Shown here piece after piece: positions 1 through 20,407 of a stretch of 64,000 nt of DNA. Location: NCBI GenBank assembly GCA_015654675.1, contig JAATGM010000032.1, forward strand, positions 124,001 to 188,000, written 5' to 3'. How positions within the stretch are numbered: the stretch's first letter is position 1; every line of letters begins with the position of its first letter. Both the position numbers and the translations under genes were made by a program. Origin of the DNA: Planctomycetota bacterium (lineage in GTDB: Bacteria > Planctomycetota > Phycisphaerae > UBA1845 > UTPLA1). The notes beneath the pieces are model-generated. The model had not been told where the DNA came from. It worked only from the letters and a program-made list of their open reading frames with translations, and did no database searches.

Positions 1-3000
1 GACCTGAACGAGGCTCATAGAAACGACGTCCGTAGTCGTACTCGCCAGTTTCCGCGATCAGGTATTTCGTGCTAAATCGGAATGGATTCGACGCGCCGAA
101 CGTACCCGCCGACGCGATCTTCTGGCCGTACGCGTCATATTCATATGTTGCGGCCGGTGTTGGGGAACTGCTGCTTACGGACTCGATCAACTGGCCGACG
201 TTTCCGTTGGCGTCGTAGAAGTAGGCGAGGGCCTTATCGTCGGTTGCCGTGGTCGTGCCGTTGGTGTCGTAGCAGCCGAGCAGGCCGCCGATGCCGCCGG
301 CGGCGTGGAGGCCGGACTCGCTTGCATTGCCGTTCTGGCCGGCGAGGTCGAGGCCCCAGGTGTATTTGCGGATGACCGCATTGATGCTCAGCCCATTCAG
401 TTCGAGCAGCAGGTTCCATTTGTCGTAGATGAATCGCGTGTCGCTGGCGGCCGCAGAGTTCCAGGCCGAGCCGGTCCAGGCGAAGGTCCGCTTGCGGACG
501 CGGCGGCTCATGTAGTCGTAGTCGAACTTGATCTGGACGCTGCCGGTGTCGGGGTCTCTAGGGGTGACGGAGATCAGGCGATTCTCGGCGTCCCAGCTAT
601 ACGTGAAGCGAAGCCCGTCATCGGTCATATTGCCGTCGGCGTCGTGGAACACCGGACCGCCTTCCAGTCCATCCGGGGGCGCTATGACCTTATTTATGGC
701 GCTGTACTGGTTCAGATTGTTGGAAGCGTAGTTAATCGTCAGACCACCCTCGCTGGCAGTCGTGCGGTTGCCGATGGGGTCGTAGTTGTAAGAACGGGCG
801 CGGTCGGTAACTTCCGTTCCTAGGTCGGTCGGGCTTGTGCCGGGGTAGGTATGGGCTGAGGTCAATTCGTTGCGGGTGTTGTAGCCCCACAGCTCGACGC
901 GGCTTGTGTCGAAAGCCGAACCGGTTCGGACGACGCTCGTGCGGCGGGCAAGGTTGTCGTTTTCGTAGGCGTATTTAGAGACGAGGGTTGGAGTTGTGCC
1001 CCAGTTGTTTTCGATTGAGGTGATGAGATCGCGCCGCGGCTCAAAGCTGCGCTTCGCGAACCCAGCCGTCGTGGAAGAGGACGACATGAAGCGCGTTTCC
1101 TCGACAAGATCGGTGTTGGGAACAAACGTGTAAACCACGCCGGTGCCCGCCGACCCGCCTCCGTCCGCATTGTTGCCCGGCAGTCCCGGGCCGCGGACGT
1201 TATTCAGCCGACCATAGGAGTCATAGCCGTAGCTGCTGGTGGAGTCTGAACCGGCCGAAAGCGAGACGAGCCGCCCCTTTTCGTGGGTGGTGGTCGTGTC
1301 GTATGTGCGGGTGATCGTTCGGGTATGCAGGGCGCCCGAGCCGGAGATTTCCTCCTTCCAGAGCTTCAGCGTCGCCGGGTCGTAGGTGAAGGTGTGAATT
1401 CCGACGGCGTCCGTGACGGTGGCTGGGCGACCGAGGAGGTCGTAGGTGAAGTCTACGTCATGAGTCGCCGTGTCGCTATAGTCGATTTTCTCTAACTCTC
1501 CGGTCTGGTCCTTGTAACTGTATGTGGTGATGAGCGAACCGCCGCTTCGCGCCCATTTGCGCGTCTTGAGCGAGCCGCCGTCCTCGTACGTGTACTCAAC
1601 CTTGGTATTGTCTGCATAGGTCTTCGATTTCAGCAGGCCAGTCGTGTTCTGGTAGGTCCATGTCGTGACGTCGCCGTTGCCAGCGCTGGATGGCCAGCTT
1701 GCCTGGTCCCACATTTCGGCGGCGTCGGTGCGGTAGGTGTGGAGGTAGATTCGGTCGCCATAATTGGGGTCGTATTGAATCCAGACTGGTTGGGGGACGT
1801 CGCCCCAGGTCTTCTCCATGCGGCCGAGCAGGTCGTAGCCGAAATAGGTTATCTTGCCGGCGTCATTGGTGATCTTGTAGAGCTGGCCGGCCGAGTTGTA
1901 TTCGTAGCTGGTCTGCTTGCCGAGGGCGTCCTTGACGAAATCGACGCGGTTGGCCGAGTTGTAGTGCGTTTCGCTCCAGTACTTTGTGCTGCCATTGGTG
2001 TGCCGCGGGTCGAGGACGAAGGTTTGGCGACCGAGCGCGTCATACTGGAACTCGGTGGTGTTACCGGAGCGCGACGCTACGGAGCGGACGAAACCACTCT
2101 GCGAGACGGACCGTGCGACCAGCGTTGACATCGATGAGCCGAGATAAATCGAGTCCGTTGAGGACTTGTCGCTCGGATTAAAAGTCCGATTGGCGACGGT
2201 TGTATTTCCGACCGTGTCGACCGTGGTGATCCGCGACGTTTCGTAGGTCCCCAAATCCGTAAACTTTTCCCTTCGCGATTCAACTACTATCGGGATACCG
2301 CCGGGATAGACAACGGACTGCGTCGACAGGCAGATGCCATCGTCGAGATTGAACGCGATGTCTGCAGTTCGGACGCGGTCGGTATCGAATTGCAATTGGT
2401 ATTCATCATCCCAACCCGTGCTTGTCAACTTCGTCGCCTGATGTCTGAGATTGCCAAGTGCGTCGTACTGGTAAACCATTTCGGCCCCTTCCGGAGCCGT
2501 GAGCCAGCCCGGGCCGCCCGAAGGCAAGCTATACTGTCCAGCGCCGCTGAGCGGAATCGTTCGATACAGGATTAGCGTTCCGCCGCCTTCTCCGGGCTCT
2601 CCGCCACCTTCACCACTGCCTCCACTGCCACCGCCATTGGTATATCCCGCGGGGTCCGAAATCACCGCCTGTGACCGCTTGTGCCCTAGGCGCCCCTTCC
2701 GCGCAGAGCCCGATTCAGAATACGATTTGTAATAGTCATAGAACGTGTGGATTGTCGAATTTGATATCCAGCCGGGCTTCGCGTCGCGGATCGTTCTTCC
2801 GGCGATATCGGTCCAAGTTTGAGTCCATCGGGCTGGATATGCCCCAGGACCGATTCCCGCTCGGGACCACTGGGCCCCGTCAGACTCGATTCCGTACGTA
2901 GTTAGCTGGGTGACCACGCCGCTGCCGGTCCGCTTGCTGGAGCGGCCGTCGCGGAAATACTCGGTGACTTCCGTTCTGTTACCGGGGCGCGTCACGGTGA

Positions 3001-5659
3001 TTTTGCGACCACCGCCTGTCACAGTGTCGTAGGAGTACAGCGTTTGCAAACCGGTCTCGTCGGTGCTGGTGAGAATTCGCCCGGCCTTGTCGAAAGTTTG
3101 GGATGTCTCTCTCAAAAGGTTTCCACTCGCTTCAACCGTTCGCACCACGCGACCGGCCGCGTCGTAATAGAAACGTGTGTCGATCGACTGATTGTTGGAC
3201 TCGCCGGTGCGAGATTGAGACTTAACGCGGCCCGCGGCGTCGCGAATCGTGGTCATGGCCATGCCGACTTCGTCGGTCGCAGTTTCTTCAAAACAGCAAT
3301 CACGGGTGATTTCTTGGCCGGTATGATCTGATCTCACCACAGACGTGATTCTGCCTTGAGAATCTCGCGTATATGCGACCCAACGAATGCGTCGCCAGGG
3401 ATTCTGGCCTTCGAGCGCCGCGTAGGCCTCAGTCGCTTCAAATAACACGTATCCGCTGCGATTGACGTAGGTCAACTCTCGGGTCGAGAGGGCATTGATA
3501 TAGCTCTGGCCGTCGCGCGCACCGTGACTGACAATGATACAAAGGTCCGGTTTGACCGTGGCACCTTCATCAAATGTCGGGTTCCCGGAATTGCCGAAGT
3601 CGGGCGAGAATGCCCCGGGTACATAAGCATAGTAATCAGAACGCCCATCCGGGAAATCGATTCGGTCGATTCGATCGTCATTGCCCGCCAAGAAAACCTT
3701 ACGCGTGACCAGATTCGTATCGGTGTCGTAGCCAGAATCTTGTTTGATGCAGCGTTTTTCGATGATTTCCTTCGCACCGGTCTGGGGCTCCCTGTACCCG
3801 AAGTATGTCTTGTTTGTCACTGTTCCATCCGTTGTTTCAGTCACGATGCGCGGGCGAGAATCAACACCCGAGGTCGCGGTGGGGACTGGATTGTCGGATT
3901 CGTCTGGAATTGATGTCGACGAAAGTTGGTCGACATACGTATAGCTTGTCGCACGGGTTCCCGTACCGCTCGTTGTCAATGAAGTATTCAAGTAGGACTG
4001 CGTTGTTTGGGACACGCGCCCTTGATTGTCGTAGCTGTAGGTGATCCACGACCCGTCCGAAAATGACTCTGTTTCAAGGAACCCTTGGTTGGGGCTTGAC
4101 GATCGAAACGTTCGCGTCGTCACAAGGTGAGCGCCGTCAGGATCGACGATCCGCTCAGACAGGTCACGCCGGTCATCCGGCAGATTTACGTACGTTTCCA
4201 GTTCTTTGAAAGCAACCGCGCCCTGATCATCGGCGATGCTGTGTTCTCGTACGTTTCCCGTCCACGTCTCGGATTCCTGGACAAGTGTTGCACCGGAGGA
4301 GGTAAGCGTTCGAAGCGTCAGTGTTAAGCCACTCGACGTAGTCGCGCCCTCGTATTTGTAGCTCATCGCGACGTTTCCGCTCGCGTCTTTTTTCTTGATC
4401 GTGAGCACGCCCGCGCTCGGGTATTCGACCTCCCACAAAGCAAACGGCTGCCCGACCGGAACGTAAAGATTCGTCTGCTGCGCACGCTCCGGATTGCTGT
4501 TGTAGGAATAGAGCCGGATCGTATACTTGGACGGACTATCGGTCGTGACATCGGTGAGGCATGTTGGTGTCAAGATCTGCCGAATCGCCGCTCCGGACCG
4601 GATGATATCCACGTCCGGCCGCATGAAATCAAAGCGAAGGCCGGCTGGTGTACCTAGTGTTGCGCTCGGTGTCTGGCCGTACAGCCAAAGATCGCCAATC
4701 GGCTCGCCCTCGATGTCCTTTCCGAGGTCAAATCGCACGTCAACGCTGCCGAGCCGGGCAGTCGCACCACCGGTTCCACAGGCACCATTCCCCGAGCATC
4801 CTCCACTGCAACCGCCCCCAACCGCAACCGGCGTATCGAAATAGCAGGTTGGCGATCCATTAAGCGTGGCCCTGACGGTAATGACGCCAGTGCCGCCGCC
4901 GCTGACGAGGCGATTTCGATTGACGATCGATGCGCCGTGCGTTTCGCCCAATATCGTGAGGTTTAGACTGACACAGGGAAAGTCCCGCAGAAACGCCTGG
5001 GCACCTTGGCCAGAACCGGACCGGGACGAGCGATTGAATACGAGCCCCGTCGCAGGGCATGGAACGACCGTCTCGACCGACCCTGGCGCCATCGGTAATG
5101 CCTTCGCGGCTTCGTTTGGGTTACAACTACATGCTTCAACGGGAAATGGATCCGGATCGCCGTGCGGATTGCCGTTGTATACAGTCCCATCAAGCCTATA
5201 CGTTCCAACTCTGTCCAATAGAAATGACGTTACCTGGCTTTGGTAATAGTCACCGGATGCAATAATTTCTGGCGCACCAGCCGGGGGCAAAAACGTTACC
5301 GACCACATGTGCCAACATGGGCAACTGCCTGATGTGGACGAACAGGCAATGAAGTCGCCCAAGCCGGGAAACGGACATGTCGGGGTCGCTTCCCACGTGT
5401 AGTGGTCGAATTCCCCGCCGCTAATCAATCCGGCATATTGACTGCACAACGATTGAATAGGCAGCGCAGTAACCGCCCCATTTCCGGCCGAAGTTGTGCA
5501 CCAACCGGGCTGTGCACAATCAGCGGGAGGTCCCAGAGGATCCGACTGGAACGCGACTGCCCGGCCCGGCGAGCCCGGGATCAGCATCATGAGCGCGCTG
5601 ATTATTCCACACGATAGGAAACAGATCAGATGCAACGATGTTCGTTGACTAGCAGGCAT
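1..5659 (-). CDS. RHS/YD-repeat secreted protein, C-terminus beyond window
   Basis: The frame from the ATG at 5659 stays open to the window edge, giving 1886 codons with no stop, so the 3' end is missing. It begins with a Sec-type signal peptide (hydrophobic residues about 9-28, likely cut after AVA near residue 36). A Cys-rich N-terminal region follows, then a domain near residues 298-345 containing GSVDVRFDLG and DLWLYGQ. From about residue 550 there are many YD repeats of the form YDxxGR, including YDNQGR, YDAAGR, YDALGR and YDLLGR. A Gly/Ser/Glu-rich linker lies near residues 1005-1020. The last visible residues (TGEYDYGRRFYEP) match the RHS core signature that normally closes the YD shell. 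The RBS is weak (GGGAG). RHS proteins form hollow beta shells at the cell surface and may carry a variable C-terminal effector, which cannot be seen here. The toxin role is therefore unknown; the family call is secure. Confidence 0.92.
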   Translation of the reverse strand, partial: MPASQRTSLHLICFLSCGIISALMMLIPGSPGRAVAFQSDPLGPPADCAQPGWCTTSAGNGAVTALPIQSLCSQYAGLISGGEFDHYTWEATPTCPFPGLGDFIACSSTSGSCPCWHMWSVTFLPPAGAPEIIASGDYYQSQVTSFLLDRVGTYRLDGTVYNGNPHGDPDPFPVEACSCNPNEAAKALPMAPGSVETVVPCPATGLVFNRSSRSGSGQGAQAFLRDFPCVSLNLTILGETHGASIVNRNRLVSGGGTGVITVRATLNGSPTCYFDTPVAVGGGCSGGCSGNGACGTGGATARLGSVDVRFDLGKDIEGEPIGDLWLYGQTPSATLGTPAGLRFDFMRPDVDIIRSGAAIRQILTPTCLTDVTTDSPSKYTIRLYSYNSNPERAQQTNLYVPVGQPFALWEVEYPSAGVLTIKKKDASGNVAMSYKYEGATTSSGLTLTLRTLTSSGATLVQESETWTGNVREHSIADDQGAVAFKELETYVNLPDDRRDLSERIVDPDGAHLVTTRTFRSSSPNQGFLETESFSDGSWITYSYDNQGRVSQTTQSYLNTSLTTSGTGTRATSYTYVDQLSSTSIPDESDNPVPTATSGVDSRPRIVTETTDGTVTNKTYFGYREPQTGAKEIIEKRCIKQDSGYDTDTNLVTRKVFLAGNDDRIDRIDFPDGRSDYYAYVPGAFSPDFGNSGNPTFDEGATVKPDLCIIVSHGARDGQSYINALSTRELTYVNRSGYVLFEATEAYAALEGQNPWRRIRWVAYTRDSQGRITSVVRSDHTGQEITRDCCFEETATDEVGMAMTTIRDAAGRVKSQSRTGESNNQSIDTRFYYDAAGRVVRTVEASGNLLRETSQTFDKAGRILTSTDETGLQTLYSYDTVTGGGRKITVTRPGNRTEVTEYFRDGRSSKRTGSGVVTQLTTYGIESDGAQWSRAGIGPGAYPARWTQTWTDIAGRTIRDAKPGWISNSTIHTFYDYYKSYSESGSARKGRLGHKRSQAVISDPAGYTNGGGSGGSGEGGGEPGEGGGTLILYRTIPLSGAGQYSLPSGGPGWLTAPEGAEMVYQYDALGNLRHQATKLTSTGWDDEYQLQFDTDRVRTADIAFNLDDGICLSTQSVVYPGGIPIVVESRREKFTDLGTYETSRITTVDTVGNTTVANRTFNPSDKSSTDSIYLGSSMSTLVARSVSQSGFVRSVASRSGNTTEFQYDALGRQTFVLDPRHTNGSTKYWSETHYNSANRVDFVKDALGKQTSYEYNSAGQLYKITNDAGKITYFGYDLLGRMEKTWGDVPQPVWIQYDPNYGDRIYLHTYRTDAAEMWDQASWPSSAGNGDVTTWTYQNTTGLLKSKTYADNTKVEYTYEDGGSLKTRKWARSGGSLITTYSYKDQTGELEKIDYSDTATHDVDFTYDLLGRPATVTDAVGIHTFTYDPATLKLWKEEISGSGALHTRTITRTYDTTTTHEKGRLVSLSAGSDSTSSYGYDSYGRLNNVRGPGLPGNNADGGGSAGTGVVYTFVPNTDLVEETRFMSSSSTTAGFAKRSFEPRRDLITSIENNWGTTPTLVSKYAYENDNLARRTSVVRTGSAFDTSRVELWGYNTRNELTSAHTYPGTSPTDLGTEVTDRARSYNYDPIGNRTTASEGGLTINYASNNLNQYSAINKVIAPPDGLEGGPVFHDADGNMTDDGLRFTYSWDAENRLISVTPRDPDTGSVQIKFDYDYMSRRVRKRTFAWTGSAWNSAAASDTRFIYDKWNLLLELNGLSINAVIRKYTWGLDLAGQNGNASESGLHAAGGIGGLLGCYDTNGTTTATDDKALAYFYDANGNVGQLIESVSSSSPTPAATYEYDAYGQKIASAGTFGASNPFRFSTKYLIAETGEYDYGRRFYEPRSG

Positions 5660-6101
5660 TGGAAGCTCCCGTAGAGGACTCGGGTTGAGTGTTTGTGCTT
5701 GGTGTCGAAAGCGTACCGATTTCGCGGGCGCGCTTCAAGCGAAAACTGGCGATCGACAGCGTCGATTTTCGCAGCGCCTCACCATTGCCACTTGATCCAC
5801 GCCTGTGCGGAATAGCGCGAGCCAGCTGCCGGGCGTAGCCGAAGGCCGACCCGTTATGCTTCCGCGCTGAGCGATCCTATCTGCGTTTCTTGGATACGAA
5901 TCAGCCGACTCGCAAGGCTTGCGCTCGCCCGCGATGGGGAGCGCTTGCAAGACGACCCACCGAATGCGCTCAGCGTGCGCCGCTCAATCTCCCAATAGGC
6001 TCTAAGGCCATTGAGGGCAGTCGAGTTGCAATCGAACAGACCAAACCGTTATGCTAACTGTAGTCGTACCAACAACCCTGAAGGGGGCGGAGGGAATCAT
6101 C
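5660..6101. other. Divergent intergenic region
   Basis: About 440 bases separate the starts of the RHS protein (-) and the YWTD propeller protein (+), so promoters for both must lie here. I see no convincing gene. The short frame 5735-5950 (-) has no family signature or good RBS. I could not pick out a reliable promoter pair by eye. Confidence 0.5.
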
Positions 6102-6998
6102 GTGAAGCGATTGCGATTCGGGTTTCGGGCAGCGATCCTTGTTTGGTTCATGGCGATTGAGAGCGTGTCGGCCTTCCAGCTTTACTTTACAGAGAGTCCA
6201 CTTGGCAGAATCCGGCGAATGCAACCGGATGGGTCGGGGCTTGTTACGCTCAGTGAGCAATCGAATTCGTTGGCACAGGGCCTTGCCGTCGATTTATCCC
6301 ATGACGCGATCTATTGGGTCGACTTCAATCGCGACAAGATCCGTCGCGCACCTTTGGGCGGCGGACCGCCCACAAACGTCATGAATGCCGCATATCCCGC
6401 AGACATCGCAATCGACCACGTTCACGGAAAAATGTACTACAGCGTTGAAACGGATGTCCCTGAATCAAAAATCCATCGGGCCAACCTGGATGGGAGCAAC
6501 GAAGAAACTCTCGCAACGGCGTTTCCTTTCGCGGACGGTCTGGCGATCGACGAAGTCGGCGAAAAAATCTATTGGGTCACATACGATTCCATGCAACGAA
6601 GCAATCTGGATGGATCGCAAGTCGAAACCTTGGGAACCCGTGTCCACGACGGCAATGCAGGGGTCGCGATCGATCGAATTCGAAACAAAGTATATTTCAG
6701 CGATAGAGATCGCATTTATACCATGAATCTCGACGGATCGGGGCGCGTGACCTATGTGCTGCCGGGTCTCAGCATCAACCGAATTGCCATCGACCCAGTA
6801 GGCCAGCACCTGTTCTGGACAATCGGCTCCACAAGCCCCAATGGGATTGTGCAGCGAGCAAATCTGGATGGGTCCGATGCCGTTACGATCGCGTCGGGAC
6901 TCACCTATCCTTACGGAATTGTTTATGTGCCGGAGCCACCTTTGGCACCGGCGCTCGGAGTTGCGCTGCTGGCGCTTTGCTTGCACTCTCGACGCTGA
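6102..6998 (+). CDS. Secreted YWTD/LDL-receptor-type beta-propeller protein
   Basis: I place the start at GTG 6102: GGCGGAGGG lies about 7 bases upstream, and the protein then opens with a normal signal peptide (basic KRLRF, hydrophobic core, cut near VSA-FQ). The upstream ATG at 6051 would add 17 residues before the signal. The mature part has about five to six blades of roughly 42 residues, each with NLDGS…ET or similar and IDxxxxxxYW-like strands (AIYWVDF, KIYWVTY, KVYFSDR, HLFWTIG), typical of the LDLR class B propeller. The C-terminus has VPEP, a short hydrophobic helix and a basic HSRR tail, which resembles a degenerate PEP-CTERM sorting signal. The role is likely extracellular binding; the ligand is unknown. 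Confidence 0.8.
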   Translation: MKRLRFGFRAAILVWFMAIESVSAFQLYFTESPLGRIRRMQPDGSGLVTLSEQSNSLAQGLAVDLSHDAIYWVDFNRDKIRRAPLGGGPPTNVMNAAYPADIAIDHVHGKMYYSVETDVPESKIHRANLDGSNEETLATAFPFADGLAIDEVGEKIYWVTYDSMQRSNLDGSQVETLGTRVHDGNAGVAIDRIRNKVYFSDRDRIYTMNLDGSGRVTYVLPGLSINRIAIDPVGQHLFWTIGSTSPNGIVQRANLDGSDAVTIASGLTYPYGIVYVPEPPLAPALGVALLALCLHSRR

Positions 6999-7017
6999 AT
7001 CAAATTGTTCGACCGCG

Positions 7018-7038
7018 TTCGAAGATCACCACTTCGAA
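7018..7038. terminator. Hairpin between convergent genes
   Basis: A perfect 7-bp inverted repeat TTCGAAG / CTTCGAA with a 7-base loop lies just after the propeller stop codon and before the end of the convergent protease gene. There is no T-tract, so termination is only inferred from its position. Confidence 0.35.
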
Positions 7039-7084
7039 GACACCGACACGTTCGCGTTCCCGCTAACCGCAGTATGGCGGAATA

Positions 7085-7654
7085 CTATAAGACTCGGATC
7101 CCTGCATCCTTGAGCGTCTTCGCTCGGCGATCGTCCAAGAACCCCCGCTTGTAGCCGGCGACCGACACGAGCGCAAATTGCTCCAAGACGTCTCTCCCAA
7201 TTATCGAATGAGATAAGCCCTGTCCCGCCCTGCGATGCACAAACTCGCAACAGCCGAGCCGCTTCTTCATCCATCCAATTTCGTGCTCAGTCGATGCTGC
7301 AAAATAGAGAAATTCGAGGTCGATCGATTTGGTAACGCCATTGTCGTCCGTAAAGATCACGCCCGCGCCACCGTTTCCACCCTGCAGGATTTTCATCGGA
7401 GAACGACCATTAATCGTTGAGAGCGGTCGCACGTCGTCTTGAAGGAATGAGTCCGCCAAATCCGGGTGGGCGGCGATCAGTTTTCGCTCGTCTTTGGGGC
7501 AGATGAAAGTATTATCCAGGCCGGTGTCCAACATGAACGTAAGCGGGATTCGAAGTTCCTGCCCGCCATAGAAAAGCGTTCCTTGGATGAACGGCCAGAC
7601 GCGAGCAGTCTTGACCCGGTCCATGCTGACATAGCTGATTGAGAATCGCGGCAC
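7085..7654 (-). CDS. Retropepsin-like aspartic protease domain protein
   Basis: The GTG start at 7654 gives 189 residues. The hallmark is FMLDTGLDNTFI with the D-T-G triad at residues 43-45, preceded by a beta-strand-rich stretch (LRIPLTF), as in the single-domain retropepsin-like (gag-asp/SpoIIGA-type) fold. Later GRDVLEQFALV matches the second conserved 'IIG…L' element of this family. I see no signal peptide or membrane helix, so it is probably cytoplasmic; such proteins act as homodimers. It lies 95 bases downstream of the small protein at 7750-8007 on the same strand and may be cotranscribed. The substrate is unknown. Confidence 0.65.
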   Translation of the reverse strand: MPRFSISYVSMDRVKTARVWPFIQGTLFYGGQELRIPLTFMLDTGLDNTFICPKDERKLIAAHPDLADSFLQDDVRPLSTINGRSPMKILQGGNGGAGVIFTDDNGVTKSIDLEFLYFAASTEHEIGWMKKRLGCCEFVHRRAGQGLSHSIIGRDVLEQFALVSVAGYKRGFLDDRRAKTLKDAGIRVL

Positions 7655-7749
7655 GGTGTGAATGCCTCGCGGCGCAGGACGTGCCGCCCTATCAAGTTTT
7701 CAGATTCGACCTAAGGTTAAGAGGTGCGCAATTCAGAAAATGAGGCAAT

Positions 7750-8007
7750 CTAGCCCATGTAACAAACGCGCTCGTCCGGCACTTCGAGGACGACAAAGCC
7801 CGTCCCGCCGGCCTTCCGAGCGGCGGCTTCGGCGTCAGCCTCGGTAGCGAAGCCATCGATGTGAAACTTGCCCGGTCCGGTCGCAAACCCGGCGACATAA
7901 TGGATGCCAGGTTTCACGTGTTGTTGAAATGTATCCGCGACGCGCGCGAGCACTTGTCTGCTCATCATCAGCGCGCTTCGCGATTCGTGGCTTAGTTCGG
8001 CTGGCAT
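7750..8007 (-). CDS. Small hypothetical protein
   Basis: 85 residues from ATG 8007. Its composition is that of a real soluble protein, with an alpha/beta pattern (YVAGFATGPGKFHIDGF, then an Ala/Glu-rich helix, then GFVVLEVP). I do not recognise the family. It precedes the retropepsin-like gene on the same strand, and the spacing allows an operon. No signal peptide or cysteine motif is visible. Confidence 0.5.
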   Translation of the reverse strand: MPAELSHESRSALMMSRQVLARVADTFQQHVKPGIHYVAGFATGPGKFHIDGFATEADAEAAARKAGGTGFVVLEVPDERVCYMG

Positions 8008-8703
8008 GTCCTATCGTGCCTCTACTGATTTGGCGCAGGTTTTCATTTCGTGGTGTGGCATGTGGCTCAGAAGTTCAACGCCAGCATGCAAAAAAGTCAA
8101 ACCTGCCCACTCTCTACTTTCGTCCTTTTTGCCCCGGCAAACCTGACATATTGTATGAAACCATTCTTGGGTGCGTCAAACAAATTCCTGCGATAACCCT
8201 CATTGCGCACGATAGTTAGGTGCCATGTTGTCAAGTGGGGATTCATAACGCCAGAACACGCCGCTCTTTGCAATGGCTGGTCCCTACCCCCGACCCACTG
8301 TTTTTTGCGCGTTTTTGTTGAGAAAAAGGCTCATTTTGATCAAGCCGGGTCCGCGAATGCGACCCAGTTACACGGTTGGTGGGCGCAAATGCACGTCGAT
8401 TGGCCGATGCTCGGGCCCATCATGTTCCATCAGCTCCGCTTACGCCTTCCGGTGGTCAGCGTGCCGCCCTGTAGTCATTCCTCAATGCTGCCCTCCGTGG
8501 ACAACTCCGCCTGCCTAAGCACTAGCGCAGTGGCGTCTTCGCTCAGGTCCGGCGGGTAGGGCCGTTACGAATAGTGCGCTGAGGCCCGAAACGTTGAGTG
8601 TAATCGACCCCGCATTACCGTTGAAGCAAACTCGCCGATCGACGTGTGGAGCCGCCAATCAAGGCAGACCGGACCCTAATCCCCAGGGCGCAACGCCCCC
8701 TCC

Positions 8704-8749
8704 CTGTTCAGCGATCCAGTCCGCGCGGACCGTCCCCCTCCCGGAACAG
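8704..8749. repeat. Nested palindromes, possible origin or operator
   Basis: CTGTTC (8704-8709) and GAACAG (8744-8749) form inverted arms around a perfect 12-bp palindrome GTCCGCGCGGAC at 8719-8730. CCCCCTCCC tracts flank it on the left and lie inside the right arm. It sits in the gene-free region upstream of a primase-bearing element. Function is inferred only from context. Confidence 0.35.
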
Positions 8750-9243
8750 TACCGTCGGGACCCGCAATAGAATCGGGCCGAGGTAACGTCGCTAGCCGGG
8801 ACTCACGCCCAAGGCGGCCCAGACCCCAACCGAACGAGCTTCACGCTTTCAGCGAGGCCCGATCTACCAAAATTCTGGCTTGTCGGTCGCCGCGACGCAA
8901 GTGCAGAACGCCCCCCAACCCCCCAGCTGGGGATGAACTTCTGGCGGATCGAAGTCGAGCAGTTGTGCCAGGCTGCAGCGCGGATCGATCGCGCATTTGG
9001 ACCTAGCACTTAAGCCTCGCCGCGCGAACCGCCCCCAGAACCCCCGTGATTACGGCGGCCGTTCCCCCTCCCGCCGCAAGCCGGGGCCGAGCCTCGTCGT
9101 CCCGTCGTGCCATTGCGGCATTACCGCCGGCACGGCCCCGACCCCCGACAGCAAGACGGGCGGGGAAGTCGTTGACGACTGAATCTCCACCAAACATCAT
9201 AACCGCGGGACGGCGGCTCGCTACCGCCACAATTCGGACCGGC

Positions 9244-9279
9244 CGGGTTCGCCGGCGAGCAGATACCCCGGTGAACCCG
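9244..9279. promoter_or_regulatory. Inverted repeat before first element gene
   Basis: CGGGTTCGCCGG (9244-9255) pairs with CCGGTGAACCCG (9268-9279) at 11 of 12 positions around a 12-base loop. It ends 29 bases before ATG 9309. It could be an operator for one of the element's HTH proteins or an RNA hairpin in the leader. Confidence 0.4.
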
Positions 9280-9308
9280 CCCGGCCGACCCGATTGGTAT
9301 CTGCGCCC

Positions 9309-10595
9309 ATGCCGCTTATCCGCGATTCTGCGAGAGACCCGTTCTCGCTCGACGCTGACGATGAAAACGAACTAATTCCTCTCAGCGGCGGCGACACCGA
9401 TTGCCCGACCGATTTGGATGCCATCGAAAGGAAGGTCCGGCGCGGCCTGCGCATCATCCGGCGCGCGATCCTTCTCGAATCCTCCAAGCGCAAGACGCTT
9501 CGTCGCCGAAAAGACGACAGGTACGACGAGGAGAGGTGGACGCGACCGGGCTCGGCCGCGGTCGCGGTGCGAAAAAGGCGAGCATACGAGGGATGGGAGC
9601 GCGAGACTGACGACGCATGGACGTTTTATTTGAAACAGCTTCCTGGAAAAGTTCGCCATCGCCTGACATTTCTGAAAGACGTCGGGCGCGACCTGTTCAC
9701 GGTCTGGTTTCAAACACGGCGAACTGAATGCCTCTGGTGGGCCGGGGAACTCCCATTTCCCAGTTGGTGGAATGGTGATCCTCGGAAACCAGGCGTTCGC
9801 ATTCCGGCGACGAAGCGATCGCTGATTGTCCGACTATTGTCGTACGAGCACGTGGCCGTTGTGTGGCCCCCGATCGATCGATTCATTGCGCAAGCTGTTC
9901 GATATTTCGAGTCGTGCCGCCGGACGGGTATCGAAGATTTTACGCCGACCGTTGACGCCGTGAAGGGGTTGATCCTAGAGATCGTGGGCCGTTACCAATT
10001 ACCGTGGGCGCGGCAAGCGGAACACGCGTTGGACGCAAACGATCGCTTCGTAAAGCGAGTCATTAGCCGTTCCCGGCCCGTGAACGGTGTACGTGTGCGC
10101 GAATTAGCCTATCGAGTACGCGAAGACGAGCCGGCGGCAAGCAACCCGATCATTCTCACGGCGTTGTACGAACTCGGCCCAGAATCCGCACGTCGTCTCA
10201 GAATCATCGAGCATGTCGAGTTGCAAAGGGACTCGGGCGAAAACGGCACCGTGCGGTGTTGGGTTCTAAACCAGCGTGCGAAGAAAGTATCCCACCAACG
10301 CCGTCGGAGATCTCCAGGGCTTCGCCGCATTCCGACAAAAAGGCAGGGTGAGGCATGGGCGCTCTATGCGAGCTTGGGTTCACACCGCGAGGTTGCGAAA
10401 ATAATGCGGATCAGTGCGCAGCGCGCCGGAGTGCTGATTCGGGAAGCTGATGCGAAACTCAATCAGGCCGGAAGATCGGTGCAGACGCGAGCGTTGCCCA
10501 CCGGGGCTCGTGGCGAAGCCCTAATCGAGGCTCCCGAAGGCGCCAACCCTGCGCCAACGGAGAGCGCCAACTTCCCTAATCCGAACGACGAATAA
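9309..10595 (+). CDS. Element protein of unknown function with C-terminal HTH
   Basis: ATG 9309 gives 428 residues; a TTG at 9294 would add five. Neither start has a strong RBS. The N-terminal 100 residues are highly charged (Arg/Asp/Glu rich). The middle contains Trp-rich stretches (ECLWWAGELPFPSWWNG) and helical segments. Near residues 340-395 a segment with RQGEAWALYASLGSHREVAK and a following IMRISAQRAGVLI looks like a sigma-70 region-4 or FIS-type helix-turn-helix. The tail is low in complexity and Pro/Ala/Asn rich. I do not recognise the family. As the first gene of an element that encodes its own primase, it could be a regulator, an origin-binding protein or a packaging-related factor; the sequence does not decide this. 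Confidence 0.75.
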   Translation: MPLIRDSARDPFSLDADDENELIPLSGGDTDCPTDLDAIERKVRRGLRIIRRAILLESSKRKTLRRRKDDRYDEERWTRPGSAAVAVRKRRAYEGWERETDDAWTFYLKQLPGKVRHRLTFLKDVGRDLFTVWFQTRRTECLWWAGELPFPSWWNGDPRKPGVRIPATKRSLIVRLLSYEHVAVVWPPIDRFIAQAVRYFESCRRTGIEDFTPTVDAVKGLILEIVGRYQLPWARQAEHALDANDRFVKRVISRSRPVNGVRVRELAYRVREDEPAASNPIILTALYELGPESARRLRIIEHVELQRDSGENGTVRCWVLNQRAKKVSHQRRRRSPGLRRIPTKRQGEAWALYASLGSHREVAKIMRISAQRAGVLIREADAKLNQAGRSVQTRALPTGARGEALIEAPEGANPAPTESANFPNPNDE

Positions 10596-10631
10596 ATATG
10601 CTTGAATTTGCACCGTTGGGGCGGGCGAATT

Positions 10632-10675
10632 CGCGCGCCAACCCCTTTGTTGCATCCCTTAGGCGTTGGCGCGCG
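10632..10675. promoter_or_regulatory. Perfect 11-bp inverted repeat before AlpA-like gene
   Basis: CGCGCGCCAAC (10632-10642) and GTTGGCGCGCG (10665-10675) are perfectly complementary, with a 22-base loop. They lie in the 126-base gap between the unknown protein and the AlpA-like HTH gene. The arrangement fits an operator for the adjacent HTH protein or a terminator/attenuator; no T-tract follows. Confidence 0.5.
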
Positions 10676-10721
10676 CGCGTTAGAGCGGTCGCGATTGGGC
10701 GACCCGCTGGAGAACGCTGCA

Positions 10722-10919
10722 ATGACTGACGACTCGCTCTTGGACGTCCGTGACGTTGCGAAGACACTTCGGATCAGTGTTCGGCAGGTCTGGAAACTCG
10801 TCAAGGCCGGCCAGATTCCCCCGCCTGTGCGCCTCGCGCGATCCGTACGATGGCAGCGCAAGCTGTTTGAGAAATTCATCGCGGACGGCTGCCGTATTGA
10901 GCGATCGGTGCAGTCGTGA
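10722..10919 (+). CDS. AlpA/excisionase-like helix-turn-helix protein
   Basis: 65 residues from ATG 10722, preceded by CTGGAGA. The core LLDVRDVAKTLRISVRQVWKL followed by a Lys-Ala-Gly-x-Ile-Pro-Pro wing and VRLARSVRWQRK is the MerR/AlpA-type HTH found in phage excisionases and satellite regulators. An upstream extension to 10602 is open but has no RBS and has arbitrary composition, so I reject it. The stop overlaps the GTG of the primase gene (GTGA), so the two are translationally coupled. Likely roles are excision control and transcription of the operon. Confidence 0.8.
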   Translation: MTDDSLLDVRDVAKTLRISVRQVWKLVKAGQIPPPVRLARSVRWQRKLFEKFIADGCRIERSVQS

Positions 10920-13048
10920 GCGATACCCTGACGATTGCTCGCGACTACAAATCGCGCGGGTGGCAACCCATCCCGGTTCCGTTTCGAGCCAAGAAACCGG
11001 TCATTGATTGCTGGCCGACTCTTCGCCTCTCAGTCGAGGAGCTCGCGGCGCATTTCAACGGGAAGCCCACAAACATCGGCGTATTGCTCGGCTCGACGTC
11101 GAACGGCTTGATCGACGTCGATTTGGATTCACCCGAGGCCGTGGCACTGGGCGATTGGTTCCTGCAGGAGACGTCCGCTGTCTTCGGTCGCGAATCCAAG
11201 CCCCGATCGCATCGGCTCTTCAGCTCTCCGAAACTCGCAAAGCCCCAACAGTTCCGAGCGCCCGACGGAACGATGGTTGTCGAGGTCCGCTCCACCGGCG
11301 GGCAGACGGTCTTCCCGGGAAGCGTCCATGAATCCGGTGAACCGATCGAGTGGTTCGATAACGGCGAACCCACCGCCGTCAGCGCAGGTGAACTTGGGCG
11401 CTCCGTCGGACGACTCGCGGCTGCGGCGCTCTTGTCGGCGCATTGGCCCGCGAAGGGCTCGCGCCACGATGCAGCGCTTGCCCTGACCGGCGGCCTGCTC
11501 CGGGGCGGCTTCAGTCGTGCGCATGCCGAGCATTTCATCCGAGCCGTGGCGACGGCGGCCCAGGATGACGAGATTGAGGATCGAGTCAAGACAGTGGCGA
11601 CGACTGAAGCCCGCCTCGAGTTAGACGACGGAGAGGCGTGGGGGTGGCCAAGACTTGCTGAGATCATTTCGGAGAAGGTGGTGAAACGTGTCCGGGATTG
11701 GCTGGGCCTGCGGGCTGTCGCGCGGTCTCGCCCGAGTGAAACGCGCGCCGACCTCGTCTGTTTCGCAGACGTCCGGTCCGAAGTCATTCGCTGGTTGTGG
11801 CCAGGTCGAATCGCGATCGGAAAGGTGTCCATGATCGCAGGCGACCCCGGACTCGGTAAATCCCTTGTGACGCTCGATATGGCCGCACGAGTGTCGCGCG
11901 GTACGCCGTGGCCGGACAGGCCCGGCGAACCGATCTCGGTTGGCGCAGTCGTGCTCCTCTCGGCTGAAGACGATGCAGCCGACACAATTCGCCCACGATT
12001 GGACGCGTCTGGTGCGGATGTGTCCAAGATTATGCAACTTCGGGGCGTGAATCGCACCGATCTTGAATCAGGAAATGTTCGATCGTGCGCGTTCTGTCTT
12101 GAACATGACCTTGAGATCCTTGAAGCGGCGATCAACGTCATCCCCGACTGCCGACTGGTGGTCGTCGATCCGATTTCCGCCTACCTCGGAAAAACCGATT
12201 CGCACGTAAACGCCGAAGTTCGCGCGATTCTCGCGCCCTTGGGTGACCTGGCGTCTCGGCTCGGCGTGGCCATCGTCGCGGTCACGCACCTACGCAAGGG
12301 TGAAGGCCCGGCGATCTATCGGTCGATCGGCTCGCTCGCGTTCGCGGCAGCGGCGCGCGCCGTCTGGGCGGTGACGAAGGACAGCGACGATCCAACGGGT
12401 GCCAGACGACTGTTCCTGCCTGTAAAGAACAATCTGGCAAGCGAAGGAAGCGGCCTCGCCTACTACGTGCGATCGGCACAGGGTTCCACGCACCCAACCG
12501 TCTGTTGGGAGCCCGAGCCGGTGGCGGTATCGGCGGACGAAGCGATGCGGCTGCCAGCGCGGCCGCGGGGGCCTGCTGCGAGCGAGCGCGACGAAATTGT
12601 GGATTGGTTGCGGGGCGCGCTTGCGGACGGTCCCCGGTTGGCAAAGGAACTTTACGAGGAGGGAATCGAGGCGAACGGGTTTGCCAAACGAACAATCGAG
12701 CGCGCCCGGAAGGCAATCAAAGTTGTCGTCTACCGCCCGGACAATCCTGGCCCGTGGTGGTGGCGCTTGCCGGACGGATCGGATCGTCAAGAAGCCCGAG
12801 GTTCGCGCTCTCACTCCAAACCTGGCGGTGTGGCGGTCTGTCCGGAAACCTTCGGAAAAGTCATGGCAATCGCGGCGCAATCATCGCAGACCGCCAAGTT
12901 CTCGGGTAATGGCAAACTGCCAATGAAAACGCACGACGATCGGGGGTTCCGGCCCCCGGACCGCGACGAAAACGGGGAGACACTCGTTGCACGTGCGGAG
13001 CTATGGCAACGCGAGCTGGCGGGCCGACGGGAGGGGGAAGCGCAATGA
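10916..13048 (+). CDS. Primase-polymerase fused to RepA-type ATPase/helicase
   Basis: 710 residues from GTG 10916. Residues 1-165 form a bifunctional primase/polymerase (prim-pol, archaeo-eukaryotic primase fold): IDVDLDS at 66-72 carries the metal-binding D-x-D, KPRSHRLF near 95-102 gives the nucleotide-binding His, and VVEVRSTGG near 121-129 the third motif. Residues 290-490 form a RecA-like hexameric helicase related to plasmid RepA: Walker A GDPGLGKS at 309-316, Walker B LVVVDP near 414-419 and sensor VTHLRKGE at 457-463. The C-terminus has a winged-helix-like segment (DEIVDWLRGALADGPRLA) and a charged tail. It probably primes and unwinds at the element's own origin. It is coupled to both neighbours by GTGA and ATGA overlaps. 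Confidence 0.9.
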   Translation: MSDTLTIARDYKSRGWQPIPVPFRAKKPVIDCWPTLRLSVEELAAHFNGKPTNIGVLLGSTSNGLIDVDLDSPEAVALGDWFLQETSAVFGRESKPRSHRLFSSPKLAKPQQFRAPDGTMVVEVRSTGGQTVFPGSVHESGEPIEWFDNGEPTAVSAGELGRSVGRLAAAALLSAHWPAKGSRHDAALALTGGLLRGGFSRAHAEHFIRAVATAAQDDEIEDRVKTVATTEARLELDDGEAWGWPRLAEIISEKVVKRVRDWLGLRAVARSRPSETRADLVCFADVRSEVIRWLWPGRIAIGKVSMIAGDPGLGKSLVTLDMAARVSRGTPWPDRPGEPISVGAVVLLSAEDDAADTIRPRLDASGADVSKIMQLRGVNRTDLESGNVRSCAFCLEHDLEILEAAINVIPDCRLVVVDPISAYLGKTDSHVNAEVRAILAPLGDLASRLGVAIVAVTHLRKGEGPAIYRSIGSLAFAAAARAVWAVTKDSDDPTGARRLFLPVKNNLASEGSGLAYYVRSAQGSTHPTVCWEPEPVAVSADEAMRLPARPRGPAASERDEIVDWLRGALADGPRLAKELYEEGIEANGFAKRTIERARKAIKVVVYRPDNPGPWWWRLPDGSDRQEARGSRSHSKPGGVAVCPETFGKVMAIAAQSSQTAKFSGNGKLPMKTHDDRGFRPPDRDENGETLVARAELWQRELAGRREGEAQ

Positions 13049-13350
13049 GCCGGCGCCAAGCGTCAATTGAATCCCAATGGCCACCACGCCCCACCGTCTG
13101 GCCCGAGGTCATGACCGATATCGAGGTCTGCCTGTATCTACGCCTCGACGCCGTTCACGACAGTCCTGCCAGCGCCAAGCGAACGCTCCGGTATATCCGC
13201 CGGAACGACGGGCTGCCCGATCTGGGTCGAATCGCAAACCGCGTGCTCTTCAGACGCGCCGCGGTCGATGCGTGGCTGGCCTCTCGCGAGCGCGTTGAAC
13301 CGAGGATTCCGAATCCTCCGGTCACGAATTCGGAGTCGGTGACACAATGA
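13045..13350 (+). CDS. Small helix-turn-helix/excisionase-like protein
   Basis: 101 residues from ATG 13045, which overlaps the primase stop (ATGA) and follows a strong GAGGGGGA RBS. The pattern VMTDIEVCLYLRLD, a short insert with AKRTLRYIRRNDGLPDLGR, then VLFRRAAVDAWLASR matches the excisionase/DNA-binding HTH layout (helix, recognition helix, 'pdlGr…vlfrr.av..wl' wing). It is the second HTH protein of the element and lies directly before the integrase leader. A role in excision is likely; direct repression of the integrase is an inference. Confidence 0.7.
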   Translation: MSRRQASIESQWPPRPTVWPEVMTDIEVCLYLRLDAVHDSPASAKRTLRYIRRNDGLPDLGRIANRVLFRRAAVDAWLASRERVEPRIPNPPVTNSESVTQ

Positions 13351-13473
13351 GTTACGCGAGCGCGCGTCAGTTGCGCGTCACTTTTTCCTTGTCTCAGAAA
13401 TTCAGTTGTGGTATGAAACAGGTGCTTAGAAACCAAAGAGGAGACCATTTCCCGAAACTAGAACCCCGAACAA

Positions 13474-13547
13474 CCCCGCAAAAGTTGTCGATAGCCGTGA
13501 GGCACGAACCGCTTCCTCTTTGGTGCGGTAAGCCGGCTTTTGCGGGG
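13474..13547. promoter_or_regulatory. Perfect 11-bp inverted repeat in integrase leader
   Basis: CCCCGCAAAAG (13474-13484) and CTTTTGCGGGG (13537-13547) are perfectly complementary across a 52-base loop. The right arm ends 20 bases before ATG 13568, and the AGGAGG RBS (13554 region) follows it immediately. Folding could expose or hide the ribosome site, or the arms could be recombinase or excisionase binding sites. Confidence 0.5.
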
Positions 13548-13567
13548 CTGCGCAGGAGGTTCATACC

Positions 13568-14914
13568 ATGACGCGCAAGATCAGCGTCAACCGGCGTTGG
13601 CTTGAGCCGGTCCCACTCGGCCAGGATGGCACCCCGATCCCCGAAAACCTGTGGCCACGACGACGCAAGCACGTCTGGATCGTGCGATGGTTCGCAGCGT
13701 CGAGCGACGGGCGTGTTATCAGGCAATCGAAACAGTTCCCGACGCGCGAGGACGCCGACTCATTCCGCAATCAGCGGGCGGAGGAATTCGATCGGCTCCC
13801 TTCCGCGCGCCGTGCGGCGCGGAATATCACGTTGGGAGAGTTTGCCGCCGAGTTTCGCACACTCGGCCAAGGCCCGCGCGGAATCATGCTGCGGGCGCGT
13901 TCGCTTCAGCAGTCGTGCAACGTGCTCGACCGATTAGTCGGGTTTCTCTGTGCGGACACGAAACTCTCGACAATCACTTCGGCGGACGCGGCCCGATTTG
14001 TCGCCAGCGTTCGAACGAGAAAGACCAAGATAAAGCTGCCTCCCGGCGAACGAACTGTAAAGCTCTCCGAGGCGACCGTTGAAAAGATCAAACGGACAGC
14101 CAAGGCGTGCTTCAGCGTGGCGATCAATCCTCTTGGCTACGTCCGCGAGAACCCATTCGCGATGCTGAAGGCCGGGCGGCTTGAGGGCTCGCCGATTCGA
14201 TACATCACCCCGACGGAGTTCGCCGCGATGCTGGCGGCCTGCGGGTCGCAGACGACTCCTACCAGAATCTGGTGGCGATGCTTCCTGTCGGCCTGCTACA
14301 CGGCTGGGCTGCGATACTCCGAGGCGGTCAACCTCGTCTGGTCGGACATCGATTTCGCGCGGGGCTCGATTCGGGTCTCGCCGAAGCCAGAGGCGCGGGA
14401 CACCGTGGCCTGGTCCCCCAAGGATCGTGAGGTTCGGACAATCCCGATCCCGGCCGCAACGCTCGATATGTTGACCAATTTGCAGTCCGTTTCACCCGAC
14501 GGGCATGCCTATGTCTTCCTACCTGCGGAGCGGTTCGCATTCATCAAGGCCGCTAAGGAAGCGGGACGGTGGAAGGATACGCAGGCGGCGTTGAACAACT
14601 TCTCCCGGTCGTTCCGGTTGCTTGTCCAGCGGGCGGCGCGAGACATCCCGGCTCTGCTTGACGGCGAGGGCGATCCGGCTGTCTCAATTCACGATTTGCG
14701 CCGGACTGCGATCACGAACTGGTCGAAGGTCGCAAACATGCAGACCGTCATGACCTTGGCGGGTCACAGCAACATCGAGACGACCCGCCGGTACTATGCG
14801 GCCGTGACTGAGGACCAGCTCGACAAGGTTCGCGGAGCGACTGGCGAACTCATGGACGCGGCCGTTTCGAGGGCGGAAGCGGTGCAAGTTTCGGTAAAAG
14901 TGACGCGCGAATGA
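13568..14914 (+). CDS. int: Tyrosine recombinase (integrase)
   Basis: 448 residues, with AGGAGG ahead of ATG 13568. An N-terminal arm-binding-like region (1-85) precedes a SAM-like core-binding domain (about 88-190). The catalytic domain shows TAGLRYSEAVNL (Arg249), a Lys in SPKDREVRTIPI (Lys285 region), HDLRR (His375, Arg378), LAGHSN (His400) and TTRRYYA (Tyr409 or 410), so the full R-K-H-R-H-Y set is present. It points at the 3' end of tRNA-Arg(TCT) 87 bases downstream, the expected attB. It should integrate and, with the HTH proteins, excise the element. It appears intact. Confidence 0.93.
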   Translation: MTRKISVNRRWLEPVPLGQDGTPIPENLWPRRRKHVWIVRWFAASSDGRVIRQSKQFPTREDADSFRNQRAEEFDRLPSARRAARNITLGEFAAEFRTLGQGPRGIMLRARSLQQSCNVLDRLVGFLCADTKLSTITSADAARFVASVRTRKTKIKLPPGERTVKLSEATVEKIKRTAKACFSVAINPLGYVRENPFAMLKAGRLEGSPIRYITPTEFAAMLAACGSQTTPTRIWWRCFLSACYTAGLRYSEAVNLVWSDIDFARGSIRVSPKPEARDTVAWSPKDREVRTIPIPAATLDMLTNLQSVSPDGHAYVFLPAERFAFIKAAKEAGRWKDTQAALNNFSRSFRLLVQRAARDIPALLDGEGDPAVSIHDLRRTAITNWSKVANMQTVMTLAGHSNIETTRRYYAAVTEDQLDKVRGATGELMDAAVSRAEAVQVSVKVTRE

Positions 14915-14969
14915 CGCGCCGAGCCCAGTTCGGGCTTCATTGACGATGCGCGATGTCAGGATTGAAAAC

Positions 14970-14996
14970 GCAAGTGGCACACAACGAACGACTTGC
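14970..14996 (-). terminator. Possible terminator after tRNA-Arg
   Basis: Read on the minus strand, GCAAGT, a 15-base loop and ACTTGC are followed by GTTTTC, six bases beyond the tRNA 3' end. This resembles a short intrinsic terminator. It also lies where recombinase arm sites of the element would be expected. Confidence 0.35.
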
Positions 14997-15001
14997 AAGA
15001 T

Positions 15002-15075
15002 CGCGCCCGGCAGGATTCGAACCTGCGACCAGCGGATTAGAAATCCGCTGCTCTATCCAACTGAGCTACGGGCGC
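15002..15075 (-). tRNA. tRNA-Arg (anticodon TCT)
   Basis: A complete 74-base cloverleaf on the minus strand. The acceptor stem is GCGCCCG/CGGGCGC with discriminator G; the D arm is GCTC…GAGC; the anticodon stem GCGGA/TCCGC holds loop TTTCTAA (anticodon TCT). The variable loop is TGGTC, and the T arm is GCAGG-TTCGAAT-CCTGC. CCA is not encoded. It is intact although an integrase gene abuts its 3' end, consistent with an element that restores the 3' end on integration. Confidence 0.97.
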
Positions 15076-19954: not shown

Positions 19955-19984
19955 GTAGCAGCGAATTTTTCCGGGAGGATTTTC

Positions 19985-20407
19985 ATGAAGCGTAAACGGT
20001 TCATCGTATTGGCTGCGGTGCTCACGCTCTTGCCGCTGACGGCCGCGTTCAGTCAGTACACCATTCCCTGGTTCACGATCGATGGCGGCGGAACGACGAG
20101 CACCGGCGGGACATTCTCGCTGACGGGCACGATCGGCCAACCCGATGCAAGCTCATTTGCCGGACCGATCAGCAACGACTTCTTCTCGCTCGTCGGTGGC
20201 TTCTGGCCGGCAGCGGTCGTTCCGAGCTGTGCGCTCCCCGGCGATATGGATCTCAGCACGCTGCGTAACGGCGTCGACATTCAGGGATTCGTGCGGTGTT
20301 TGCTGGGAGTAAGCGGTACGAACTGCGCCTGTGCCGACATGAGCGGCAACGGCACCGTTGGAGTTGAGGATATCCCCGGATTCGTGGCCATCGTCCTTGG
20401 AATGTAA
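19985..20407 (+). CDS. Small secreted protein with dockerin-like repeats
   Basis: 140 residues, with GGGAGGA ahead of ATG 19985 and a clear signal peptide (KRKRF, hydrophobic core, cut near AFS-QY). The mature N-terminus has a WFTIDGGGTTSTGGTFSL and GTIGQPDA pattern recurrent in planctomycete secreted proteins. The C-terminal 65 residues hold two Ca-binding-like loops, PGDMDLSTLRNGVDIQGFVR and DMSGNGTVGVEDIPGFV, which is a dockerin-like duplication, with cysteines between them. Dockerin-like tails here may serve cell-surface attachment rather than a cellulosome; that is inference. Confidence 0.75.
   Translation: MKRKRFIVLAAVLTLLPLTAAFSQYTIPWFTIDGGGTTSTGGTFSLTGTIGQPDASSFAGPISNDFFSLVGGFWPAAVVPSCALPGDMDLSTLRNGVDIQGFVRCLLGVSGTNCACADMSGNGTVGVEDIPGFVAIVLGM

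Follow-up and report, generated by a model that had tools for sequence, protein, structure and literature searches.

A predicted 16.9-kb integrative element at a planctomycete tRNA-Arg(TCT) gene, with a sister element abutting the opposite tRNA half

INTRODUCTION

An integrase gene that stops just short of an intact tRNA gene raises the question of where the other end of the integrated unit lies, what the unit carries, and how it might move. Such a gene occurs in the DNA analysed here, a 64,000-nucleotide stretch of a Planctomycetota contig (JAATGM010000032.1, hereafter C1) that starts at C1:124001 and is referred to below as the window. An earlier note, made from the sequence alone, had outlined a compact and minimal element between positions 8008 and 15075, composed of five same-strand genes, lacking accessory genes, resembling a phage satellite, and ending at the tRNA gene.

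RESULTS AND DISCUSSION

Boundaries of the element

The following features define the element (window coordinates).

1..15046, no strand: in-window part of the integrated element, defined by direct repeats at both ends and a homologous left end in another element
14996..15046, + strand: right attachment repeat, with an unbroken 40-bp block shared with the left copy at 15007-15046
15002..15075, - strand: intact tRNA-Arg(TCT) called by ARAGORN, as the earlier note had read it, with its 3' end facing the integrase gene (int)

The right repeat consists of the tRNA-Arg 3' half, including the anticodon stem-loop, and 6 bp past the tRNA end. The earlier note had suggested searching for its counterpart at 5-9.3 kb, where no tRNA repeat was present; the left copy was instead recovered through a tRNA search of 31 genomes (that of the window among them) as 51 bp at C1:122132-122182 (L101:18132-18182), in the same orientation as the right copy. 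The element thus extends 1.87 kb to the left of the window, to C1:122132, and the copy-to-copy distance of 16,864 bp gives a unit of ~16.9 kb rather than one bounded at 8008. Because the left copy lies outside the window, the element also takes in window positions 1-8007 and the cargo located there. The two repeats match at 48 of 51 positions, including the gap-free 40-bp block that contains the anticodon stem-loop and runs toward the tRNA 3' end, and all three mismatches fall within 11 end positions (two past the tRNA end and one inside the tRNA). As the repeats differ at three positions, the insertion is probably not brand new. ARAGORN called no tRNA in the 20-kb left flank containing the left copy, which is therefore a tRNA fragment. 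At the other end, 87 bp separate the end of int from the tRNA 3' end, so that int lies inside the element and adjoins the intact gene; tRNA-Arg(TCT) would accordingly have been rebuilt, we infer, with the element's own copy of the 3' half.

Inside the window we found no tRNA-derived repeat, the longest exact shared word being 13 bp; a word of this length at 40416 falls to the wrong side of the tRNA. We rejected a left boundary at 8-9.3 kb, with no tRNA-derived repeat there; the best ungapped 30-base match (21/30, at window position 9280) involves the tRNA 3' end but leaves out the anticodon core, and was judged to be chance. The broader proposal of an integrative element at tRNA-Arg(TCT) nonetheless holds: the 51-bp repeat, a homologous left end at the same tRNA elsewhere, and paired repeats near both ends make the predicted tRNA-Arg(TCT) element with integrase and primase well supported.

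No empty tRNA-Arg site was found in a close relative among the 60 relatives searched, which include no same-genus genome. The flanks were compared by blast of their genes against loci of ~10 kb. The left-flank gene, by reading a ferritin/Dps-like gene, found no counterpart at 1e-20 among 20 other genomes, and the right-flank kinase had many paralogues in every genome among the matches listed. Two genomes (G001 and G008) have a kinase paralogue other than their best match ~9 and 4 kb, respectively, from a tRNA-Arg(TCT) gene on the same strand, a proximity that may reflect chance or an old shared order.

Core genes

Five co-oriented ORFs lead up to the tRNA, as the earlier note had reported.

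9294..10595, + strand: 433-aa protein, function unassigned, with a C-terminal HTH-like stretch (weak match to phrog_20952, 0.12)
10602..10919, + strand: excisionase/AlpA-type HTH protein, 105 aa (HTH_17, 2.1e-8; phrog_66, 3.5e-9)
10916..13048, + strand: Prim-Pol fused to an AAA_25 (RepA/KaiC-type) ATPase, 710 aa (PF09250, 5.8e-14; PF13481, 2.1e-35)
13003..13350, + strand: HTH protein, 115 aa (weak HTH_17 match, 1.9e-4, below the Pfam cut-off)
13568..14914, + strand: tyrosine recombinase (integrase), 448 aa (PF00589, 3.9e-22; phrog_1, 1.7e-52)

The family matches bore out the earlier assignments of the integrase and of the Prim-Pol/RepA ATPase. Integrase residues R249, H375, R378, H400, and Y410, which we take to be the catalytic residues, were invariant across eight aligned relatives. 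The Prim-Pol translation shows stretches of DxD and SxH type as well as a Walker A motif, and on its domains the protein is presumed to be a replication primase-helicase. The stop codon of the 105-aa gene overlaps the Prim-Pol start, and since the excisionase-type, Prim-Pol, and 115-aa ORFs overlap end to start, they appear to form one operon; the first possible start of the 115-aa gene is 13003, and an ATG at 13047 is also possible.

The smaller proteins were harder to name. The 105-aa protein, previously called AlpA-like, does match HTH_17, but AlpA itself (PF05930) fell below the cut-off, making "excisionase-type HTH" the safer description. The 115-aa protein, proposed as a second HTH-like protein, retains this label on its sub-threshold match and had no NCBIfam match; homologues lie within ~300 bp upstream of int in four genomes (G009, G010, G019, and G040), and it is likely an excisionase or integrase partner. 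For the 433-aa protein the HTH-like tail could again be read in the translation, but neither Pfam nor NCBIfam gave a match; one partial (C-terminal) relative was found among 60 other genomes, in G041, the similarly placed protein of G009 showed no resemblance, and a single-sequence AlphaFold2 model was unusable (mean pLDDT of 33.5). PADLOC returned no match for six proteins. Consistent with the earlier reading that capsid and conjugation genes are missing, the element ORFs scanned included no recognisable gene for a capsid, packaging, a relaxase, or conjugation (10 with Pfam, the RHS protein in two pieces; five of these with PHROGs and nine with NCBIfam).

Cargo

Besides the core genes, ~9 kb of cargo lies between the tRNA copies, along with some smaller ORFs, and the element is accordingly neither minimal nor devoid of accessory genes as first described.

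1..5659 (full ORF C1:123378-129659), - strand: RHS-repeat protein, 2,093 aa (PF05593, 1e-29)
L101:18949-19344, outside the window: lipoprotein-like ORF, 131 aa, after the RHS gene
6051..6998, + strand: 315-aa protein carrying repeats of the LDL-receptor class B (beta-propeller) type (PF00058, 2.7e-8)
7085..7654, - strand: 189-aa ORF, aspartyl-protease-like by a weak match (PF13650, 0.21, below the cut-off)
7750..8007, - strand: 85-aa ORF, no family above the cut-off

The RHS repeats of the 2,093-aa protein are certain, and its ORF alone spans 6.3 kb and runs past the window edge. A C-terminal HEAGHLMGLDDD motif (HExxHxxGxxD-like), seen in the sequence, and a sub-threshold match to Reprolysin_4 (0.07) suggest that the RHS tip may be metallopeptidase-like, and the position of the lipoprotein-like ORF would suit an immunity gene. 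The LDL-receptor class B repeat protein is probably exported. No clear gene was found at 8.0-9.3 kb, and G+C was ~0.54-0.58 over 3-9 kb versus 0.59-0.64 over 9-15 kb (1-kb windows).

Paired repeats near both ends

A strict doublet, TGACGCGC-N3/4-TGACGCGC, occurs exactly three times in 84 kb of the contig, namely near the left end of the element, near its right end, and, reversed, before int. The two copies inside the window are as follows.

13362..13380, - strand: third doublet, strict pattern, between the 115-aa HTH gene and int
14901..14919, + strand: candidate right arm site, TGACGCGC-N3-TGACGCGC, in which the TGA of the second repeat is the int stop codon

First-order Markov simulations of 84-kb length produced no match in 60 runs, and among all other loci then compared the strict doublet was found once more, at the left end of an element in genome G009; none was present at 8-9.3 kb. 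Of 52 related loci, among which near-copies are not independent, 21 have a looser doublet, TGACnC-N5/6-TGACnC, at the 3' end of int, and the variable base was identical in both repeats in 21/21 of these loci. The first count had been 22, from which L198 was removed as a misfit, its doublet being on the opposite strand. No doublet was found near int in 30 of the 52 loci, and the looser pattern has three further matches in the 84 kb outside the three strict sites. The doublets are plausibly integrase arm sites, with that at 13362..13380 a candidate site for int control.

A sister element on the opposite tRNA half

The closest integrase found (51% identity) belongs to G009, a genome of another genus in the same family. 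In G009 (loci L060 and L133), a homologue of the HTH protein (62% identity over 77 aa) lies just upstream of int, preceded by a Prim-Pol in which the N-terminal domain is followed by D5/DUF5906 domains, versus AAA_25 in the window element. In G009 the reading frame of int extends into the tRNA-Arg(TCT) gene from its 5' end, and contig C19 holds a copy (93 bp, 98%) of the 5' half of this tRNA with ~50 bp of upstream DNA. The DNA just inside this copy matches the left-end DNA of the window element (76/98, E of 1e-15); with this match beside a tRNA copy, the two elements adjoin one and the same anticodon stem-loop but point in opposite directions. The two ends of the G009 element are on different contigs, and the ends of C19 consist of a repeated sequence with seven occurrences in the genome. 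The two elements thus share the integrase, HTH protein, Prim-Pol N-terminal domain, left end, and arm-like doublets, whereas the G009 element carries the tRNA 5' half and is reversed in the tRNA, and the window element carries the 3' half.

The wider integrase clade was recovered from genome contigs with an eight-integrase alignment, the integrase alone having found no relative in this search. Of 139 relatives, 80 loci were kept (79 in Planctomycetota, three of them Kuenenia, and one in Zixiibacteriota), several of which share a genome. A tRNA gene lies just past the int 3' end at 53 of the 80 loci, with its 3' end facing int in 47 and its 5' end in six; at one further locus the tRNA is upstream of int. 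On a quick tree of 54 rows, built without bootstrap from 52 of the 53 tRNA loci, the window, and G009, the tRNA side needs five changes, and the starred branches force five; two rows (L219 and L231) are on very long branches and seven are fragments of <250 aa. Omitted from this tree, as from the 52-locus doublet count, were L226 (another record with the same match and score as L225), L236 (the locus whose tRNA precedes int), and loci that have no tRNA close to int. The side label is somewhat clustered on the tree, with a shuffled mean of 6.7 changes and ~20 of 500 shuffles as low as five.

A more careful tree of 22 integrases joined the window (3') and G009 (5') integrases as sisters (100/97) and paired G034 (5', at tRNA-Thr) with G030 (3') at 99/96, among other 3' users. 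The closest opposite-side pair, L176 (3') and L178 (5'), has integrases 81% identical, both beside tRNA-Arg(CCT), with homologous DNA reaching the tRNA (77% over 397 bp); a search of both genomes gave no clear tRNA half copy. Copies of the 5' half at element distance were found in G034 (18.2 kb), G051 (13.9 kb), and the L209 genome (15.3 kb). In the L228 genome a 5'-half copy of tRNA-Lys lies 806 kb from its tRNA, outside element distance, and in the L233 genome no half copy was seen; for the remaining 5' cases the side is given by the relative orientation of int and tRNA alone.

To our knowledge, integration side and orientation are usually treated as constant within an integrase family, and our searches of the literature on tRNA half and orientation use gave no title on within-clade side switching, with most subscription papers outside our reach. 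On balance, we lean toward a planctomycete integrase clade that switches repeatedly between tRNA halves. In this reading, the near symmetry of the anticodon stem-loop lets relatives insert from either side of the same tRNA, so that the window element rebuilds the 3' half of tRNA-Arg(TCT) and its sister rebuilds the 5' half with its own upstream DNA. If this is true, the attP core rather than the integrase fold would set the orientation, which could then evolve easily, and elements on the 5' side would gain control of the promoter of an essential tRNA. Sister integrases on opposite halves of one tRNA offer a natural experiment on what fixes integration side and orientation; if a few core bases can swap orientation, this is directly testable, and 5'-side insertions would show how mobile elements come to drive an essential host tRNA gene.

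Relatives of the Prim-Pol/ATPase

The Prim-Pol/AAA_25 protein had a match at 1e-10 in 25 of 61 genomes (that of the window included), mostly to the ATPase part. A tRNA gene was present in 16 of the 24 regions examined (24 of the 41 matches listed), a count without a formal control, and six regions had a distant partial tRNA copy 6-39 kb away, of the 3' half in G041 (8.1 kb), G030 (6.0 kb), G013 (39 kb), and G038 (21 kb) and of the 5' half in G034 and G051 (the copies ~18 and ~14 kb away noted above). These counts indicate that the Prim-Pol/ATPase module recurs at many tRNA genes. The G030 case is a 6-kb relative at tRNA-Arg(CCT), and its far copy is itself called a tRNA by ARAGORN. Within single regions no far copy was found in most of those tried, and joining regions gave no match in G021, G045, G038 (contig C46), G037, or G010. 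A match in G026 lies wholly beyond the tRNA and was left uncounted, and those in G009 after joining were to other tRNAs. No element-wide homologue of the window element was found in these searches.

Proposed mechanism and alternative explanations

The locus is very probably an integrative element of 16.9 kb that brings along a gene for its own replication, and its tyrosine integrase would act in the anticodon stem-loop. The integrase would bind the paired repeats as arm sites and recombine the tRNA half carried by the element with the host gene in the anticodon stem-loop, thereby rebuilding the tRNA. Excision may be steered by the 115-aa or 105-aa HTH protein, after which the Prim-Pol/AAA_25 protein would prime and unwind the excised circle for replication. 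Transfer between cells could depend on something unrecognised here, such as a helper phage, conjugative machinery, or uptake, and the RHS protein and its neighbours would be cargo, possibly benefiting the host in competition.

How such an element might travel bears on two of the alternatives. A phage satellite, packaged by an exploited helper phage, is suggested by a set of integrase, AlpA-type regulator, and primase-helicase that resembles P4-like satellites, as portrayed in the accessible text of PMC8628076, and PICIs. Distant relatives of the Prim-Pol/ATPase also occur in 98 of 50,697 phage records (all at <60% identity and none covering 80%), and some relatives with the same ATPase adjoin ORFs that look by eye like tape-measure genes. 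However, no gene for packaging, capsid-size remodelling, or helper interaction, nor a relaxase, was recognised among the ORFs scanned. The matches from a general Pfam scan of 10 ORFs did not include the capsid genes psu, delta, and sid of P4-like satellites. The RHS cargo ORF alone takes up 6.3 kb, and single-protein scans of viral contigs, which detect close relatives only, found none for the Prim-Pol, the integrase, or the 433-aa protein. We regard a satellite as unlikely, and give a similarly low standing to a mobilizable element that would rely in trans on conjugative machinery. Cryptic and mobilizable PrimPol elements do exist (PMC5862659, in the portion available), 15 of 72,556 plasmid records contain distant relatives of the Prim-Pol/ATPase (again with <80% of it covered), and the unassigned 433-aa protein could play a part, yet neither Pfam nor NCBIfam gave a relaxase match among the ORFs scanned.

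Other alternatives concern the integrity of the unit. The lower G+C over 3-9 kb and the 6-kb relative in G030 would suit a 6-kb element (9.3-15 kb) sitting beside older, unrelated island DNA, with the left tRNA copy left by an earlier event. We consider this quite improbable, because the doublet of the int end recurs at the left end, and the left end shows homology to the far end of the element in G009, which has the closest integrase found, whereas 8-9.3 kb holds neither a strict doublet nor a tRNA copy. Within a single 16.9-kb element, the cargo could still be older island DNA caught between the sites. It is also doubtful that the element is a dead remnant that is no longer mobile: the three differences between the repeats and the stretch without a clear gene at 8.0-9.3 kb would agree with decay, but int and the Prim-Pol gene are open over their full length, the invariant integrase residues are kept, and the core genes overlap like an operon.

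Comparison with known systems

The 16.9-kb element can be placed with the cryptic integrated elements bearing PrimPol that were described in 2018 by Kazlauskas et al. (PMC5862659), who, in the part of that paper available to us, mapped 25 of 31 PrimPol-PV1 loci as integrated elements, 14 of them in tRNA genes, and termed "cryptic" those without phage or conjugation genes. Like those elements, it combines an AEP-type Prim-Pol bearing a helicase-type ATPase domain with an integrase, direct repeats, and tRNA insertion, and no conjugation or phage structural homologue was recognised in the ORFs scanned. Its distinguishing features are the AAA_25 ATPase and the additional RHS cargo and paired arm-like repeats; the authors recognise seven families. 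It is an integrative element of a known kind, wider than first described, and extends the class to a poorly sampled phylum. A Prim-Pol with a putative helicase is likewise found on the integrated element ICETh2 of Thermus thermophilus HB27, in another phylum, where, according to the sections of PMC7693054 at hand, loss of the Prim-Pol had no effect on element replication, a warning for the replication role assumed here.

The attachment site also has precedents. In the Islander database, 3760 of 3919 islands carry a 3' fragment and 159 of 3919 a 5' fragment (figures from the excerpt of PMC4383910 available); the window element shares with these islands a predicted anticodon-centred crossover (one class there), a displaced tRNA fragment, and use of the 3' fragment, and the excerpt does not take up side switching within one integrase clade. 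According to the passages of PMC8371274 available, pTN3-like archaeal integrases are known to use the 5' half, which is seldom met in bacteria, and these integrases, compared here by description, combine a tRNA site with 5'-half use as does the G009 element. The sister on the opposite side of the same tRNA is the unusual part of the case.

tRNA genes as putative integration targets

Three further genomes carry an occupied tRNA-Arg(TCT) gene, namely G014 (locus L103), G023 (L105) and G013 (L106-L108), with copies of the 3' half of the tRNA about 6.2, 11.3 and 38 kb away, respectively. An integrase is present at the G014 locus and belongs to another clade, and none was noticed at the G023 locus. 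Two other genomes have a Ser/Thr kinase paralogue that shares its strand with tRNA-Arg(TCT) and lies upstream of it (G001, contig C1, near 1208216-1218776; G008, contig C29, near 63443-69809), placed as in the window but 4-9 kb from the tRNA.

Partial copies of other tRNA genes were also seen. The L228 genome, host of a related integrase faced by a tRNA 5' end, has a 5'-half tRNA-Lys copy (locus L242) on the same strand as the intact tRNA and 806 kb away; the sequence preceding it is N, and the copy could reflect a rearrangement or another element. Across the tRNA-Ser(GGA) start in G019 (L048 12767-13228) lies a 58-bp stretch with a second, 90% identical copy 404 bp away.

Possible control region, phage-like neighbours of relatives, and cargo

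Between the 115-aa HTH gene and int, an inverted repeat read by eye (CCCCGCAAAAG / CTTTTGCGGGG, window 13470-13560) is perhaps a terminator or control hairpin.

Some AAA_25 relatives may be prophages, because tape-measure-like and terminase-small-subunit-like ORFs, also read by eye, lie close to them:
L031 15829-17457, phage-like ORF
L043 6776-8044 and 10358-10738, phage-like ORFs

The cargo of the element itself includes:
L101 (left flank) 18949-19995 and window 1-5659, large RHS protein and, after its gene, a small lipoprotein-like ORF

The C-terminal end of the RHS protein is metallopeptidase-like, and the layout of the two genes resembles that of a polymorphic toxin with its immunity gene.
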